Below, piece by piece: positions 3,854 to 22,041 of a stretch of DNA of 32,474 nt. The position numbers were made by a program, and so were the translations under genes. The notes below the pieces were generated by a model. That model made no database searches. It was not told the DNA's origin and saw only the letters and a program-made list of their open reading frames with translations. The stretch is taken from contig NZ_JAAXLT010000133.1 in NCBI RefSeq assembly GCF_013285555.1, positions 1 through 32,474 on the forward strand. The letters run 5' to 3'. The DNA is from Candidatus Cyanaurora vandensis (GTDB lineage Bacteria; Cyanobacteriota; Cyanobacteriia; Gloeobacterales; Anthocerotibacteraceae). How positions within the stretch are numbered: position 1 is the stretch's first letter; the number at the start of each line of letters is the position of its first letter.

Positions 3854-3945
3854 TAGTCCCTCCTTTTTCAAGGAGGGCTATGCGGATCTCTTTTGCCTTG
3901 GTCCCCCACCACGCCCGTGCCCGTCAGGGTATGGGGCGGAGGGGC
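3854..3945 (-). repeat. Dispersed structured repeat, copy A (after the E2 gene)
   Basis: Read on the minus strand, this begins with GCCCCTCCGCCCCATACCCT three bases after the E2 stop codon. It continues through CCCTGACGGG and GTGGTGGGGGA to an AAGAGATC box, then ends in a perfect hairpin, CCCTCCTT-GAAA-AAGGAGGG (plus-strand 3858-3877). The same order of blocks occurs at 21894-21977 on the plus strand, also directly after a stop codon. The copies differ by scattered substitutions and a 4-base gap. There is no poly-T tract after the hairpin, so it is not a standard terminator. It could be a non-autonomous mobile repeat or a 3' UTR RNA element. Confidence 0.75.
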
Positions 3946-3948
3946 TTT

Positions 3949-5187
3949 CTAGAGCGTCAACTGTTGGGGTTCCTTTTCGAGGAGCAGGGCTAGGTCCTTC
4001 AGGAATTGGGCTCCGTGGGCTCCGTAGAAAACACGGTGGTCGCCGGTGAGGTTGACTTCCATCTGTTTACGGATGCCAAAACTGGCCCCGTCTTCTAGGA
4101 CTACAACTCTCGAAATCCCGGCTCCGATAGCGAGGATCGCGCCCGTGCCGGGGGGGACGATGGCATCAAAGCGGTCTACCCCGAACATCCCCAAGTTAGA
4201 GATAGTGAAGGTACCCGTGGTGTATTCTTCGGGGACTAGTTTTTTGGTGCGGGCGCGTTCAACGAGGTCTTTCCATTCCCGTGACAGTTGGTACACGTCT
4301 TTTTGGTCGGCCTGTTGTAGTACCGGGGTGATGAGGCCCCCATCCTCCATGGCGACGGCAATGGCGATGTTGATCGCGCGGTTGTGCTTGATCCCGGCGG
4401 AGGTATAGCTGTTGTTGACCAAGGGATGTTTTTTGAGCGTATTGGCGACGGCTTTGGCAAGCAGGGTGGTCATGGTCACGCCCTTGGCCTTGATCTGTTT
4501 GTAGAGCGCGTCCAAATTATCAGTGGTGATGGTGTAACCAACCCGGAAACTGGGGATTTGGAGACTCGCTTCCATGTTGCGGACCACGGCCTGTTGCAGG
4601 GTGGTCAGGGGGACTATGCCTTCTTGGGCGACGAGGGGCGGTGTGACGGGAATAACGGGGATAGCCACAGGCAAAGCGGTCGGTTTGGGGAGGGCGGCAG
4701 CGCGGACATCGGCTTCTTCAATCCGTCCCCTGGCACTGGTAATGGCGAGGGTGCTGAGGTCTACGCCGAGTTCCTGGGCGACGACCCGGGCGCGGGGGGA
4801 GGCGAGGACCCGACTACCACCATTGGTTGTTGCGGCGGCGACAGGTGTAGGAGCGGCTGGGGTGGCGATGGGAGCCGGAGTGGGGGCAACGGCGGCAGTT
4901 TTGGTGGCGGTGGGCTGGATGGGGTTCTTCTGGGCTTCGGCGAACTCGGCCTCAGTCTCAGCAATCAGGGCAATCGGGGAGCCGACCGCAGAGGAGCCCC
5001 CGGCATTGACTAAAACTTGGGCGAGGAGGCCCTTATTAAAACACTCCACATCCATATCCGCTTTATCCGATTCAACCACGAGCAAAATATCGCCTTTCTC
5101 GACCCGGTCGCCGACGTTCTTCTTCCAGGAGACCACCTTCCCCTCGGTCATGGTGGAACTCAAGGCAGGCATGGTTACTTCGCGCAT
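3949..5187 (-). CDS. pdhC: Dihydrolipoamide acetyltransferase, E2 of pyruvate dehydrogenase
   Basis: E2 transfers the acetyl group from the E1-bound intermediate via lipoyl-lysine to CoA, forming the core of the pyruvate dehydrogenase complex. Domains in order: one lipoyl domain (residues 1-78, lipoylated lysine K42 in ESDKADMDVE), an Ala/Pro/Thr-rich linker (about 80-122), a peripheral subunit-binding domain (about 127-164, SRVLASPRARVVAQELGVDL), and the catalytic domain (about 190-412). The active-site motif reads DHRVFYGA where bacterial and mitochondrial E2 have DHRxxDG. The same replacement is known in cyanobacterial and plastid E2. ATG at 5187 fits the family start. No other PDH subunit is adjacent, as is usual in cyanobacteria, while lipA at 23.4-24.3 kb could supply the cofactor. 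Confidence 0.92.
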   Translation of the reverse strand: MREVTMPALSSTMTEGKVVSWKKNVGDRVEKGDILLVVESDKADMDVECFNKGLLAQVLVNAGGSSAVGSPIALIAETEAEFAEAQKNPIQPTATKTAAVAPTPAPIATPAAPTPVAAATTNGGSRVLASPRARVVAQELGVDLSTLAITSARGRIEEADVRAAALPKPTALPVAIPVIPVTPPLVAQEGIVPLTTLQQAVVRNMEASLQIPSFRVGYTITTDNLDALYKQIKAKGVTMTTLLAKAVANTLKKHPLVNNSYTSAGIKHNRAINIAIAVAMEDGGLITPVLQQADQKDVYQLSREWKDLVERARTKKLVPEEYTTGTFTISNLGMFGVDRFDAIVPPGTGAILAIGAGISRVVVLEDGASFGIRKQMEVNLTGDHRVFYGAHGAQFLKDLALLLEKEPQQLTL

Positions 5188-10311: not shown

Positions 10312-11940
10312 ATGCCAAGCCCCGCTGTCAGTCGTCTCGCCTATCTCACCTCCGCTTGCGCCCTAGCCTTACTCCAGGGCTTGCCGCTACTGCTACTCAC
10401 GGCCCTCACCTCCCTCCCGGCACCGTCCGTCCGTGCCCAGTCCCTAGCCCCGGTTGCGGAGAACTTAGGTTTTACCATTGTCGGGATCGAGAGCTTTGAC
10501 TTTGCGGGCTACTCCATCAGTAATGCGGGCGATGTCAATGGGGATGGACTCGATGACATTATTGTCGGGGCTTTTGGTGCCAATCCCTTGGGACGCGCTT
10601 ACGCTGGCGAAGCCTACGTCATTTTTGGCAAGACCGATGCGATAACTGTGGACCTACGGGATATTCGAGCGGGTCTAGGTGGTTTTTCTGTTGCCGGTAG
10701 CGGCACCGTGGGCAGCTATGACCGCACCGGTGAAAGTGTCAGTGGGGCAGGTGATGTCAATGGCGATGGTCTCGCGGACCTAATTGTCGGTGCGAAGTTG
10801 TCGGATCTAGCGGGGCTCAATAACGCTGGGGAGAGCTATATTATTTTTGGCAAAACCGATACCACGACTGTAGACATCAGAAATATCGAGCAGGGCCTAG
10901 GGGGGTTTGTCATTCAAGGGGCTGACTCCGACGACCGCTCAGGCAATGCCGTCAGCTCCGCCGGGGATGTGAATGGAGACGGCCTCGCGGACCTCTTAGT
11001 CGGTGCCTACGCAGCCGAGGCAGCAAGTGTGGGGGACACTGGCCTCAGCTATGTGGTCTTTGGCAAGACCAACACCATCCCCGTAGACCTCAAGGCTGTG
11101 GAGCAGGGGCAAGGCGGCTTCGTCATTGTTGGTCAAGGCGGCGGCACTCGCTCCGGCACAGCCGTCAGTCATGCCGGCGACATCAATGGGGATGGACTCG
11201 ACGATGTGTTGGTGGGTACCTTCGACTTTGACCCGACGGCTGGGCAGACCTACGTCGTCCTAGGCAAAACTGACACTAACCCTGTGCAGTTTGCCGAGCT
11301 TAGGGCGGGGCAAGGCGGCTTTGTCGTGTATGGTATTTCAGCCAAAGACTACGCGGGGGTTGCCGTCAGTGGGGCGGGCGATGTCAATAATGATGGCTTA
11401 GCCGACTTCATCGTGGGCGCGCCGACTGCTGATGTCGGCGGTGTATTCAACGCTGGCGAGAGCTATGTGATTTTTGGTAAGACCGATACTCGCGCTGTAC
11501 AACTGGCTCTAGTCCGCGCGGGTAGCGGTGGCTTTGGCATCTTTGGGCAGCAAGAGCGCGCCCGCTGTGGGTACGCCGTTAGTGAGGCCGGTGACATCAA
11601 CCAAGATGGTTTCGACGATGTGATCATGCTCTGTGACCGCGCCGACCCCGAGGGCCGGGTGGATGCTGGTGAGGGCTATGTCATCTTTGGCAAAACTAAC
11701 ACCGCCCGTGTCGAAATCCAGGCCCTACGGCGGGGGCAGGGCGGCTATATCGTCAAGGGTGCTAGCACTGATAACCCCCTGGGCAAATCCCTAGGCGGTG
11801 GCGGCGATGTCAACGGCGATGGGCGGCCTGACACCTTGTTTGGTTCCCCCGATGCAGACCAAGGACCCCTAGGCAGTGTGGGTGTGAGCTACGTGCTGTT
11901 TGGTAAGAACAATACGCTACCCATTGATTTACAGGAGTAG
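10312..11940 (+). CDS. Secreted FG-GAP repeat protein, integrin-alpha-type seven-bladed propeller
   Basis: The protein has 542 residues with a Sec signal peptide (hydrophobic about 18-36, likely cleavage after VRA near residue 42). The rest consists of seven FG-GAP units of about 65-70 residues. Each has a calcium-binding loop of DxNxDGxxD type, as in AGDVNGDGLADLIVGA, followed by a SYVIFGKT strand. Six loops are close to consensus; the sixth (DINQDGFDD) and seventh (DVNGDGRPD) diverge slightly. Seven units fit one closed beta-propeller like the integrin alpha head. It has no other domain, transmembrane anchor or sorting signal. It is probably periplasmic, surface-bound or secreted, binding calcium and perhaps other proteins or glycans; the ligand is unknown. 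A second propeller protein lies about 6 kb away. Confidence 0.9.
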   Translation: MPSPAVSRLAYLTSACALALLQGLPLLLLTALTSLPAPSVRAQSLAPVAENLGFTIVGIESFDFAGYSISNAGDVNGDGLDDIIVGAFGANPLGRAYAGEAYVIFGKTDAITVDLRDIRAGLGGFSVAGSGTVGSYDRTGESVSGAGDVNGDGLADLIVGAKLSDLAGLNNAGESYIIFGKTDTTTVDIRNIEQGLGGFVIQGADSDDRSGNAVSSAGDVNGDGLADLLVGAYAAEAASVGDTGLSYVVFGKTNTIPVDLKAVEQGQGGFVIVGQGGGTRSGTAVSHAGDINGDGLDDVLVGTFDFDPTAGQTYVVLGKTDTNPVQFAELRAGQGGFVVYGISAKDYAGVAVSGAGDVNNDGLADFIVGAPTADVGGVFNAGESYVIFGKTDTRAVQLALVRAGSGGFGIFGQQERARCGYAVSEAGDINQDGFDDVIMLCDRADPEGRVDAGEGYVIFGKTNTARVEIQALRRGQGGYIVKGASTDNPLGKSLGGGGDVNGDGRPDTLFGSPDADQGPLGSVGVSYVLFGKNNTLPIDLQE

Positions 11941-17716: not shown

Positions 17717-20569
17717 CTAGTTAGCCGGACGGTTGCCGAGGAAGAACGCATTCACATAGGTATAGCCGCTCATCTCCCAGACGTAGGTATTCCCATCCCC
17801 GCTGTAACGCCACAGCAGGTCTGCCTGTCCATCATTCGTCAGGTCGCCTGACCCGACCAACTGCCACAACGGGTCCGTTACATCGCCGATGAAGAAGGCA
17901 TTCACGTAGGTGTAGCCGTTCATCTGCCAAACGAAGGTCTCCCCAGTATCGTTCTTGCGCCAGAGCAGGTCTGACTGACCATCGTTGGTGAGGTCTCCAC
18001 CGCCGACTAACTGCCAAGCCGGGTCCGCCACATTGCCGATGAAGAAGGCATTCACGTAGGTGTAGCCGTTCATCTGCCAGACGTAGACATCCCCAGTCTG
18101 GATGTTGCGCCAGAGCAGGTCGGCCTGTCCATCCCCCGTCAAGTCCGCCGCCCCCGCCAACTGCCAGTAAAGGTCAGTTACGGCCCCGATCAGGAAGGCA
18201 TTGACGTAGGTTGTCCCGTTGAGCTCCCAAACTGCGTTATCGCCCGTCTGGTAGTTGCGCCAGAGCAGGTCCGGCTTACCATCCCCCGTGAAGTCAGCGG
18301 CCCCAGCTAGCTGCCAAGCTGGGTCGGTGTTACTGAGTAAGGGGAGGGTGGCGACGTAGGTGTAGCCGTCCATCTGCCAGACCTCATTGACCCCCGTGGT
18401 GTAGTTGCGCCAGAGCAGGTCCGCTTGACCATCGGTGGTGAAGTCTGCCGCGCCGACCAACTGCCATTGACTCCCGCGCACGGCGACAGCGGGGATCGCA
18501 AAAGGGTCCGTACTGTTGACCGTCCCCAAGCCCGGTACGGTCACCTCAATCCGACCCGTGATGGCTCCATAGGGAACCGTGGCGGTGATTTGGCTAGCGG
18601 AGACGACTGTAAACAGGGCAGGTAGCCCGTTGAAGGTAACGCTCGTCGCCCCAGTGAAATTGGTCCCATTGATCGTCACGACGGTCCCCGGTCCACCGCC
18701 ACTGGGGGTAAAGTCAGTGATCGTGAGTACGCTGGTCGTGACAAAGATGTTCTGTTGCTCGGTCCAACCGCTGCCATTGCGGATGAAGACCAACGCCGAA
18801 CCCTGGTCCGTGGCATTGATATCATCCCCCGGTGCGCCAGTCACGATGGTATTGCCGCTAATGGCAACGGCATAACCTAGTTGGTCTTGGGCCGACCCGT
18901 CGCCCGCCGTGAGTTTGCTCTGCTGTTGCGTCCAGACCGTACCGGCTCGCTCAAAGACAAAAGCCGAACCCCGGTTGGCATCCCCCTCAAAATCATCCCC
19001 CGGCATCCCGACGACGATGAGGTCACCCACAATCGCTACTGCAAAACCAAAGGCATCATCATCGGCTCCCGTGGCGGTACGAAGTAGGGCTTGCTCAGAC
19101 CAGACCGTACCGCTTCTCACAAAGACATAGGCAGCACCACGATTGTTGTTACCACTCAAGTCATTACTTGGTGCACTAACCACCACGGTTTCGCCACTGA
19201 TCGCCACAGCTACCCCGAAGGAATCGCCATTCACCCCATCGCTTGCGGTCAGGCGTTGTTGTTGGGTCCAGAGGGTCCCACTCCGCACAAAGACAAAGGC
19301 CGAACCCTTACTACCCACCCCTGGTTTACCGACTGCTAAGGTCTCACTACCCAAAGCGAGGGCGTAACCAAACTGTTCGTTGAGGGCCCCGGTGGTATTG
19401 GGAAACTCCTGCTGGAGTGTCCAAGTCGTCCCGCTCCTGATATAGACAAAGGCTGATCCCCGGTCATCATTGTTGCCCGTGTCATAGCCCGGTGCGCCGA
19501 CCGCCAGGGTCTCGCCCTGGATCGTCACAGACTGACCGAACTTGGCATTGTTGGCGACTGTCGGAGTTAATTTCTGCTGCTCATTCCAGTCCGTACCTGT
19601 TCTGACGAAGACGTAAGCTGCGTTGCTGACCCCGACTGCCGGGGCACCGACTACCACAGTCTCACCACTAATTGCCACGGCGGTCCCAAAATTAGCCCCC
19701 GCGCCGCCATCACTGGCGGTTAGCTGCGCCTGGGGAATCCAGACCCCGTTATTGCGGACCAAGACATAGGCCGAACCCTGGTCTACATTCAAGCCAATGT
19801 CATCCTGGGGCGCACCCACAACGAGGGTATCGCCCACCAGAGCCACCGCCGTCCCCAACCCGCCGAGGGTGCCGGGCGCGTTGGGCTGGCTGAGGAGCGG
19901 GTCAATCGTGATGGGATACTGGGCTGTCTGGTCGGCAACCGTCAACCAGAGACGGGTCCCGTCGGTGTCCATTTGGGCGGTGAGGACCTGCCCGGTCGCG
20001 TCTTTTACTAAAAGATGATCGTACCGCCAAGACTCTGTTCCCCGCGTCAACAGGATAGCTTGTCCGTCCGGGGTAAGCTCAGCTTGGACTCCGCCGGTGA
20101 TTGTCATTTCGAGCCGAATTCCGCGCTGTTCCGTAGGCGGAGCTTGCAGTGTAAATCCCTGCTCTAATCCCTGGGGCGTATTTAGGTACCACTCAGTCAT
20201 AGCCCCGCGCCGATACTCGACCCGGTTACCGATAGCCGTGCCTGGAACTGCTGGGAGTGACTTATCCCCAATTTTGCTCAGACCCAGGGTCCAAGGCCGG
20301 GTCGCCCCCTCACCTTGTAGAACTAAACCCTGGGGTTGGAACTGGACGGAGAAGCCCTGGGCCGGGTTGTTGGCATAGGGTGAGCCCTGATGAGTGTAAA
20401 CCCGGTAACGGGCCTGGGTCAGAGCTTGCTGCATAGCCGGGTCAGGCAGGACGGAAGAAGTCGCCAACAGGGAGAGGACCCCCTGCAAAAAACCCACCGT
20501 TATTAACAGTAGAGCTATCGCCCTAGAGTTAAATACGGTGTAACGGACTCTAGCCAGCGTGAGGGTCAT
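17717..20569 (-). CDS. Large secreted protein with FG-GAP propeller, IPT/TIG domain and VCBS-like repeats
   Basis: The protein has 950 residues. Residues 1-45 contain a hydrophobic signal (IALLLITVGFLQGVLSLLA). About 46-232 is a beta-rich N-terminal domain ending in ITIDPLL. About 236-605 holds seven FG-GAP_2-type units (pattern FGxAVAISGETVVVGAPxxD then GSAYVFVRSGTxW), enough for one seven-bladed propeller. About 611-692 is an IPT/TIG immunoglobulin-like domain (PSGGGPGTVVTINGTNF). About 700-950 contains five 50-residue units (WQLVGAADFTxDGQADLLWR...VWQMNGYTYVNAFFIG), a VCBS/FG-GAP-like array. It has no transmembrane anchor at the C terminus. The role is probably at the cell surface or in the matrix (adhesion or binding); no catalytic motif is seen. 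The ATG at 20569 is followed by the signal; a promoter-like pair lies just upstream. Confidence 0.9.
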   Translation of the reverse strand: MTLTLARVRYTVFNSRAIALLLITVGFLQGVLSLLATSSVLPDPAMQQALTQARYRVYTHQGSPYANNPAQGFSVQFQPQGLVLQGEGATRPWTLGLSKIGDKSLPAVPGTAIGNRVEYRRGAMTEWYLNTPQGLEQGFTLQAPPTEQRGIRLEMTITGGVQAELTPDGQAILLTRGTESWRYDHLLVKDATGQVLTAQMDTDGTRLWLTVADQTAQYPITIDPLLSQPNAPGTLGGLGTAVALVGDTLVVGAPQDDIGLNVDQGSAYVLVRNNGVWIPQAQLTASDGGAGANFGTAVAISGETVVVGAPAVGVSNAAYVFVRTGTDWNEQQKLTPTVANNAKFGQSVTIQGETLAVGAPGYDTGNNDDRGSAFVYIRSGTTWTLQQEFPNTTGALNEQFGYALALGSETLAVGKPGVGSKGSAFVFVRSGTLWTQQQRLTASDGVNGDSFGVAVAISGETVVVSAPSNDLSGNNNRGAAYVFVRSGTVWSEQALLRTATGADDDAFGFAVAIVGDLIVVGMPGDDFEGDANRGSAFVFERAGTVWTQQQSKLTAGDGSAQDQLGYAVAISGNTIVTGAPGDDINATDQGSALVFIRNGSGWTEQQNIFVTTSVLTITDFTPSGGGPGTVVTINGTNFTGATSVTFNGLPALFTVVSASQITATVPYGAITGRIEVTVPGLGTVNSTDPFAIPAVAVRGSQWQLVGAADFTTDGQADLLWRNYTTGVNEVWQMDGYTYVATLPLLSNTDPAWQLAGAADFTGDGKPDLLWRNYQTGDNAVWELNGTTYVNAFLIGAVTDLYWQLAGAADLTGDGQADLLWRNIQTGDVYVWQMNGYTYVNAFFIGNVADPAWQLVGGGDLTNDGQSDLLWRKNDTGETFVWQMNGYTYVNAFFIGDVTDPLWQLVGSGDLTNDGQADLLWRYSGDGNTYVWEMSGYTYVNAFFLGNRPAN
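17729..18470 (-). repeat. Five tandem 150-base units inside the propeller gene
   Basis: The block around GAAGAAGGCATTCACGTAGG recurs at 17741, 17891, 18041, 18191 and about 18341, an exact 150-base period. Units 2 and 3 (17891 and 18041) are nearly identical at DNA level, while the outer ones have diverged. The unit encodes 50 residues, so gain or loss by recombination keeps the frame. Confidence 0.9.
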
Positions 20570-21252: not shown

Positions 21253-21342
21253 TATTTTAGAGATTTCCCCTACCTATCTCTGGATAGATTCAGGCGGTTG
21301 TCCATTGCTAGATGATTGAGGGCAAATCCAGGAGCACTACCC

Positions 21343-21894
21343 ATGTTAAATGACAAGATGGCCCCCGACGAATTGCGGGCCGGGATTGGCACCAAACTTG
21401 ATGAACCTTCCCGCGCTGTCACGGGTCCCCTCAACGAGGGCGATGTTTTTGAGCTGTTGAAAGTAGACCATGACCGCCTAGCTGACTTATTTGTGACGAT
21501 TGAGACGGAGACCGACCCCGGAGCCCTGAGTACCCACGTTGAGTTACTCGCCCGGCAACTGTTGACCCACACCACCCTCGAAGAAGAAATCTTCTATCCC
21601 CAGGTCCGCAACTTTGCCGACACCGAGGGCCAAGTCGAGAAGAACTACGAGCAGCATCAAGAAGCCAAAGAAATCCTCCAACAAATCCAGCGACTCGACC
21701 CCAGCACCCAGGACTTCAAAGCCGCCGTCCAAGACCTGCAACGGGCCATCGAGAACCATGTCCACGAAGAAGAGAACTATCTCTTCCCCGCCGTCAAAGG
21801 CGACTTGAGCGACGAAGCCTTAGCCAACCTCACGACCCAAATTCGCGAAGGCAAAGCCCGCTACGCTACCCAGTACAACCTCCAGAGTCTCTAG
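21343..21894 (+). CDS. Hemerythrin HHE cation-binding domain protein
   Basis: This 183-residue protein has one hemerythrin-like four-helix bundle (about 33-160). Likely diiron ligands are H43 (VDHDRL), H76 and E80 (HTTLEEEIFYP), H105 (YEQHQEAKE), and H139 or H141 with E145 (ENHVHEEENYLFP). Such proteins sense or store O2, or respond to NO or peroxide, but roles differ between members. A frame extension to a TTG at 21316 exists, but the ATG at 21343 has AGGAG about nine bases upstream and was chosen. The stop codon is joined directly to a dispersed repeat. Confidence 0.93.
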   Translation: MLNDKMAPDELRAGIGTKLDEPSRAVTGPLNEGDVFELLKVDHDRLADLFVTIETETDPGALSTHVELLARQLLTHTTLEEEIFYPQVRNFADTEGQVEKNYEQHQEAKEILQQIQRLDPSTQDFKAAVQDLQRAIENHVHEEENYLFPAVKGDLSDEALANLTTQIREGKARYATQYNLQSL

Positions 21895-22041
21895 CCCCTC
21901 CGCCCCATACCCTGATGGGCACGTGGTGGGGGAGCAAGGTAGAAGAGATCTCCCTCAATCCTCCTTAAAAAGGGGGACTTGAAGAAGCTGGCACACTCAT
22001 CACTCTTTCCCCCCTTTTTAAGGACAAGGGGGGATTTTTTG
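21894..22041 (+). repeat. Dispersed structured repeat, copy B (after the hemerythrin gene)
   Basis: This begins with GCCCCTCCGCCCCATACCCT directly after the CTCTAG stop and carries the same blocks in order as the element at 3854-3945 (CCCTGATGGG, TGGTGGGGGAG, AGAAGAGATC, CCTCCTTAAAAAGG). Copy B also contains a perfect 15-bp inverted repeat, TCCTTAAAAAGGGGG (21962-21976) with CCCCCTTTTTAAGGA (22010-22024), and ends in GGGGGGATTTTTT. The latter half resembles the 'CCCCCTTTTTAAGG' repeats scattered in many cyanobacterial genomes. It may act as a terminator for the hemerythrin gene, given the T tract. Confidence 0.75.

Follow-up and report, generated by a model that had tools for sequence, protein, structure and literature searches.

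The two copies of a structured repeat found in the window, by which we mean the whole 32,474-nucleotide stretch of DNA that was analyzed, are members of a dispersed repeat family with at least 96 good copies in the genome and are not a product of chance. The conserved unit of this family, module A, is probably a lineage-private, REP/BIME-like mobile repeat, for which any effect in a 3' UTR would be a by-product. The two window copies were predicted from the sequence of the window behind an E2 gene and a hemerythrin-domain gene, and both sequences bore out these places as well as the described order of the element, in which 23 consecutive identical bases are followed by CCCTGAYGGG, GTGGTGGGGG, AAGAGATC, and a CCTCCTT/AAGG hairpin (Table 1). 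The adjacency to the two stop codons also held, with corrected offsets. In copy 1, AGCCCCTCC starts at 3946 on the minus strand, two bases past the TAG at 3951-3949 rather than three; in copy 2, it starts at 21893 on the plus strand, and its first two bases, AG, overlap the end of the TAG instead of following directly after it. As a separate observation, the window holds tandem repeats within coding sequence at 17733-18475 (four 150-nt units) and 10514-11831 (seven units about 213 nt apart).

Table 1. Positions of repeat modules, neighboring genes and related features (window coordinates unless a contig is named).
Feature	Position	Strand	Remarks
Module A copy 1, long form	3890..3946	-	First base 2 nt past E2 stop; 84.8 bits (covariance model)
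TAG stop codon, E2 gene	3949..3951	-	ORF 3949-5187
E2 gene (2-oxoacid dehydrogenase acyltransferase, PF00198)	3949..5187	-	Upstream of copy 1
Module B hairpin, copy 1	3854..3880	-	CCCTCCTT-GAAA-AAGGAGGG, behind module A after AAAAGAGATC
Module A copy 2, long form minus 4 nt (deletion)	21893..21945	+	68.4 bits (covariance model)
TAG stop codon, hemerythrin-domain gene	21892..21894	+	AG common to stop and module A start
Hemerythrin HHE domain protein gene (PF01814)	21316..21894	+	Upstream of copy 2
Module B hairpin, copy 2	21959..21976	+	TCCTCCTTAAAAAGGGGG
Terminator-like hairpin with T-run	22010..22041	+	About 115 nt 3' of hemerythrin stop; a pattern match, not proof
Module C examples	C67:22208-22372, C174:5398-5562		And 27 others
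TnpA fragments	C124:7-186, C70:17-142		Mutually overlapping sequence; one beside a TnpB-like frame (assigned by reading the sequence)

BLAST with copy 2 retrieved 45 places in the 3.07 Mb genome of 234 contigs. Counting with a covariance model, as had been proposed with the original prediction, was carried out with a model built from 29 copies and yielded at least 116 matches at E ≤ 0.1, a minimum given that scoring was confined to 150 candidates. The working set consisted of the 96 copies that scored at least 35 bits and were readable, 92 of which are extragenic in retrieved DNA that is about 18% intergenic. Beyond this genome, the covariance model detected module A in none of 38 genomes of relatives, including one from the same family, and a gapped pattern with 34 matches here had none in the 290 genomes searched from the rest of the class. 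No viral contig carried an exact 20-mer of the element, an exact 21-mer had no match in a wider collection of genome contigs (from which the genome itself was possibly left out), and no Rfam family scored above its gathering threshold for the element.

That the repeat entered the data from contaminating contigs, as an artefact of assembly or binning, is hardly credible. The assembly is a draft with about 94% completeness, and both its fragmentation into 234 contigs and the 23 of 96 copies found no more than 160 nt from a contig end would suit such an origin. The copies are, however, spread over many contigs, behind Gloeobacterales-type housekeeping orthologues that are up to 86% identical to those of the same-family genome G001, and the estimated contamination is only 1.69%. 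The retrieved DNA has a GC content of 55.7% versus 55.2% for the window; a Candidatus Aurora vandensis bin of 3.07 Mbp has been reported with 55.4% GC and 1.7% contamination (PMC7368068).

Module A is an imperfect GC-rich hairpin of REP size, an imperfect palindrome of 20-60 nt. The 57-nt long form consists of GGCCCCTCCGCCCCA, T or C, an inner hairpin, A or G, and TGGGGGACCAAGGCAGAAGAG, and a short form of about 38 nt is without the inner hairpin ACCCTGMCGGGCACAGG. Stem types among the 96 copies include CCCCAC/GTGGGG (28 copies), CCCCAT/GTGGGG (23), CCCCGT/ACGGGG (12) and CCCCAT/ATGGGG (10). Two adjacent pairs thus change together while pairing is kept, in a smaller copy set as well, and these are compensatory changes of the kind that the original prediction had suggested looking for. 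Stems of one type have the inner hairpin in some copies and lack it in others, which indicates more than one gain or loss of this hairpin. An alternative stem register taken from single-copy folds (CCCC...CCGC with GTGG.GGGG) was rejected, as 87% of its cells were paired with no excess over shuffles, compared with 98.8% in the chosen register. At one site (contig C156:17994-18050), a single module A copy makes up the entire spacer between convergent genes, and its 3' part (GGACTAAG) appears to include the opposite gene's stop codon as well.

The element as first described is two joined modules, of which the conserved one is A. The CCTCCTT hairpin that had been counted as part of the conserved order is present in both window copies but is a separate repeat, module B. 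On the 3' side of module A, the motif AAGGCAGAAGAG marks the junction to B, to a further module, C, or to an inverted partner, A'; among the 96 copies, the downstream partner is A' in 35, C in 20, B in only 14, and none of these in 30, the categories being overlapping. Unlike module A, module B is represented by an exact 20-mer in 8 other cyanobacterial genomes out of 58 tested. Module C is a 165-nt repeat (AAGAGTCGGCTAGAGGACGGGGTG...GGAACCTAAGGTTCC) with 29 matches, most of which directly adjoin the 3' side of A and share its orientation. The A-A' composite forms a single long hairpin (DNA fold z = -8.1); A and A' are unlike in their 3' arms, and most A copies are without an A' partner. The joining of A with B, C or A' is a REPIN/BIME-like architecture, with palindromic units and other motifs combined in a mosaic as in BIMEs and, for the subset with A' only (35/96), two inverted REPs and a spacer forming one hairpin as in REPINs. 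A further, unclassified repeat (TCCCGGAAAGTTCCGCCGGGTCTGCTAAGTTTCCCG...) was seen behind some short module A copies, in the downstream flanks of C169:239-277 and C170:32805-32842.

The stop adjacency of same-strand copies is real. With gene calls from a simple purpose-made codon model, the 5' neighbor of the element was a same-strand gene for 46 copies and an opposite-strand gene for 40. Twenty-five of the 46 sense copies start between -2 and +3 nt from the stop codon, where a uniform distribution of copies over the spacers behind stops, taken without the elements, would give 2.5 (P = 4e-20), and a simulation within each copy's own gap gave 2.3 stop-adjacent copies compared with the 20 of 33 observed. 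No comparable pile-up at the gene edge was found for the 40 copies with opposite-strand 5' genes, 33 of which precede the gene start by at most 140 nt, typically by 20-130 nt. The contexts that could be defined on both sides (n = 66) comprised 16 tandem-sense, 16 tandem-antisense, 19 convergent and 15 divergent cases. Because same-strand and opposite-strand 5' genes number 46 and 40, and tandem contexts are evenly divided, there is no general sense orientation of the kind proposed from the two window copies. What survives of the original picture of a REP-like mobile repeat aimed at gene ends is a dispersed palindromic repeat with stop-adjacent same-strand copies, and not a family that generally sits downstream and in sense. 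In the same way, that picture was to fail if there were only two copies or if placement was random; for where the sense copies lie this outcome is excluded, and for the orientation of the family it partly holds. For the exact placement at the stop, site preference at insertion and later selection both remain as candidate causes.

The C-terminal parts of 22 stop-adjacent genes were searched in relatives, and 19 were compared with G001. In 17 of these 19, the protein ends within about three residues of the end of the G001 orthologue (the E2 orthologue has the same terminal residues, QQLTL), showing that the stops are native and that the genes were not truncated by the element; truncation with the gain of a new stop was ruled out on this ground. 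The G001 DNA behind those stops is unrelated and without the repeat. In the commonest arrangement, TAA-GA-GGCCCC (copies at +2), the stop codon was TAA in 9 of 10 copies versus 38% in the background (P = 0.001 in a small, post hoc test), and copies away from stops have AAGA before GGCCCC too. Together these suggest that positions two and three of the stop codon are often contributed by the start of the element itself. The 5' end of module A is purine-rich (AAGAGG...) and could complete a stop as T+AA, T+AG or T+GA.

The excess of TAA at +2, the sharp mode at -2 to +3 nt, and the fit of most stop types and phases to a T plus a purine run from the element would all suit a stop-targeted mobile element that recognizes and enters stop codons (or T^RR), brings along bases two and three of the stop, and is thereby harmless by design. 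We consider this unlikely, since the 40 copies that adjoin start codons or sit in divergent spacers have the same upstream AAGA with no preference for a preceding T, which argues that entry needs no stop, and since stop usage over all adjacent genes is little different from background (P = 0.24). It is quite unlikely that a palindromic mobile element targets stop codons specifically, entering between their T and the purine pair that follows and rebuilding the stop from its own start, and in this way spreads harmlessly behind genes.

A functional 3' UTR element, that is, a hairpin exapted many times and selected behind stops to protect the mRNA 3' end or to tune translation termination, is decidedly unlikely. 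In its favor are the stem covariation, the position of copies no more than 15 nt from the stop, a distance at which, according to PMC12306157, translation is affected by E. coli REPs, and the terminator-like hairpin farther downstream of copy 2, with which A would be transcribed. Against it, tandem copies show no orientation bias (16 versus 16), broken stem pairs amount to 2.8% in stop-adjacent versus 4.0% in antisense copies, which is the same integrity, and changes leaving a sense-strand G-U pair are not preferred (TG 9, CA 17). In orientation, stem integrity and G-U changes, no RNA-level selection was seen in the stop-adjacent copies. The 3' UTR regulatory RNA that had been offered as an alternative to a mobile repeat is therefore not favored, as neither orientation nor pair-preserving changes show a preference for the mRNA sense. 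An effect on mRNA decay or on the terminating ribosome is possible by analogy with E. coli REPs.

The position of a GC-rich hairpin directly 3' of genes would also fit an intrinsic transcription terminator common to many genes, but this is very improbable. Aligned copies have no T-run behind the hairpin, the stem being followed by ACCAAGGCAGAAGAG, close to half of the copies with a called 5' gene run antisense to it, and copy 2 is followed by a better terminator-like site. Given the missing T-run and this downstream site, module A of copy 2 is probably within the 3' UTR.

The expected mobilizer of REPs is a RAYT. No nearby RAYT-type transposase, as had been suggested for the window repeat, was found above cut-off: the best hit of the RAYT model NF047646 reached 17 bits versus a cut-off of 80 in a draft assembly that is about 94% complete and in which contigs often break off within repeats, and a PF01797 search returned no RAYT and only two TnpA pieces at contig ends, these Y1 pieces belonging to IS200/IS605-type elements only. 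The presence of the fragments at two contig ends likely reflects a multi-copy element collapsed in assembly. The visible end of the IS200/IS605-type element has no likeness to module A by eye. GTAG stands at a boundary in 6 and 8 of the 96 copies, and CGTC in none.

Under the preferred reading of module A as a REP/BIME-like mobile repeat, the copies would have spread as non-autonomous mobile DNA by means of a trans-acting transposase, for which an IS200/IS605-type enzyme is the only Y1 candidate seen. Insertions would survive only where coding sequence is spared, so that tolerance behind a gene would begin at the stop codon, which the purine-rich start of the element could itself complete. A hairpin at the stop would become part of the 3' UTR and, by analogy with what is reported for E. 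coli REPs, may hold back 3' exonucleases or act on the ribosome at termination; such an effect would be a by-product and not the reason for the family's existence. Mobility is inferred, since no empty site could be demonstrated at the DNA level in the nearest relative, whose intergenic DNA has diverged too far. Also against the preferred reading, the draft yielded neither a RAYT nor any other dedicated transposase, and mobile insertion and selection alone predict intergenic spread, not a pile-up at stops.

We file the module A family as a member of the descriptive REP/BIME class, and not of the GTAG/CGTC or RAYT-associated families. New here are the sequence family itself and its restriction to one deep-branching lineage, together with an inner hairpin that varies between copies, the absence of both tag and RAYT, and the sharp stop adjacency on one side only. 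A literature search returned no REP description for Gloeobacterales and, as far as the literature searched shows, this is the first REP/BIME-like family described in this order, the deepest-branching photosynthetic cyanobacteria. It provides a clean natural case in which to distinguish targeted insertion from selection as the route of REP-like repeats to stop codons.

Among known systems, PATEs are palindrome-associated elements derived from IS200/IS605 elements, with subterminal hairpins and no need for terminal inverted repeats. Module A resembles them in its hairpin and in the occurrence of an IS200/IS605-type TnpA fragment and TnpB in this genome, whereas the visible IS end differs from module A by eye. 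REP termini that give stop codons and REPs beside gene ends have been published, GTAG REPs providing TAG stops (PMC3733652), as have REP doublets, or REPINs (Bertels and Rainey 2011, PMC3116915). Like the REP/BIME elements of E. coli and Pseudomonas (GTAG and CGTC super-families, PMC3733652), module A is a short imperfect palindrome with about a hundred extragenic copies, occurring as singlets, as inverted pairs and in mosaics with other modules, near gene 3' ends; unlike them, it has no GTAG/CGTC end tag, no RAYT found and an unrelated sequence, its divergent contexts are not depleted (15/66), and its placement at stops is tighter. The inverted A-spacer-A' doublets fold as one hairpin as REPINs do (PMC3116915), but the 3' arms of A and A' differ, most A copies have no A', and no RAYT was identified. 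E. coli REPs no more than 15 nt from stops are reported to affect translation (reference 17 of PMC12306157), and module A shares with them a hairpin start near the stop and, potentially, an effect on the terminating ribosome; its mode lies at 0-3 nt, and its sequence and phylum are different. Finally, module A resembles the cyanobacterial GTAG-12/15/16 REPs (PMC3733652) and the small dispersed repeats named in PMC3116915 in being a small intergenic palindrome, and module B is likewise common to other cyanobacterial genera, whereas module A is private to this genome, being missing from 290 of 290 other genomes of the class.
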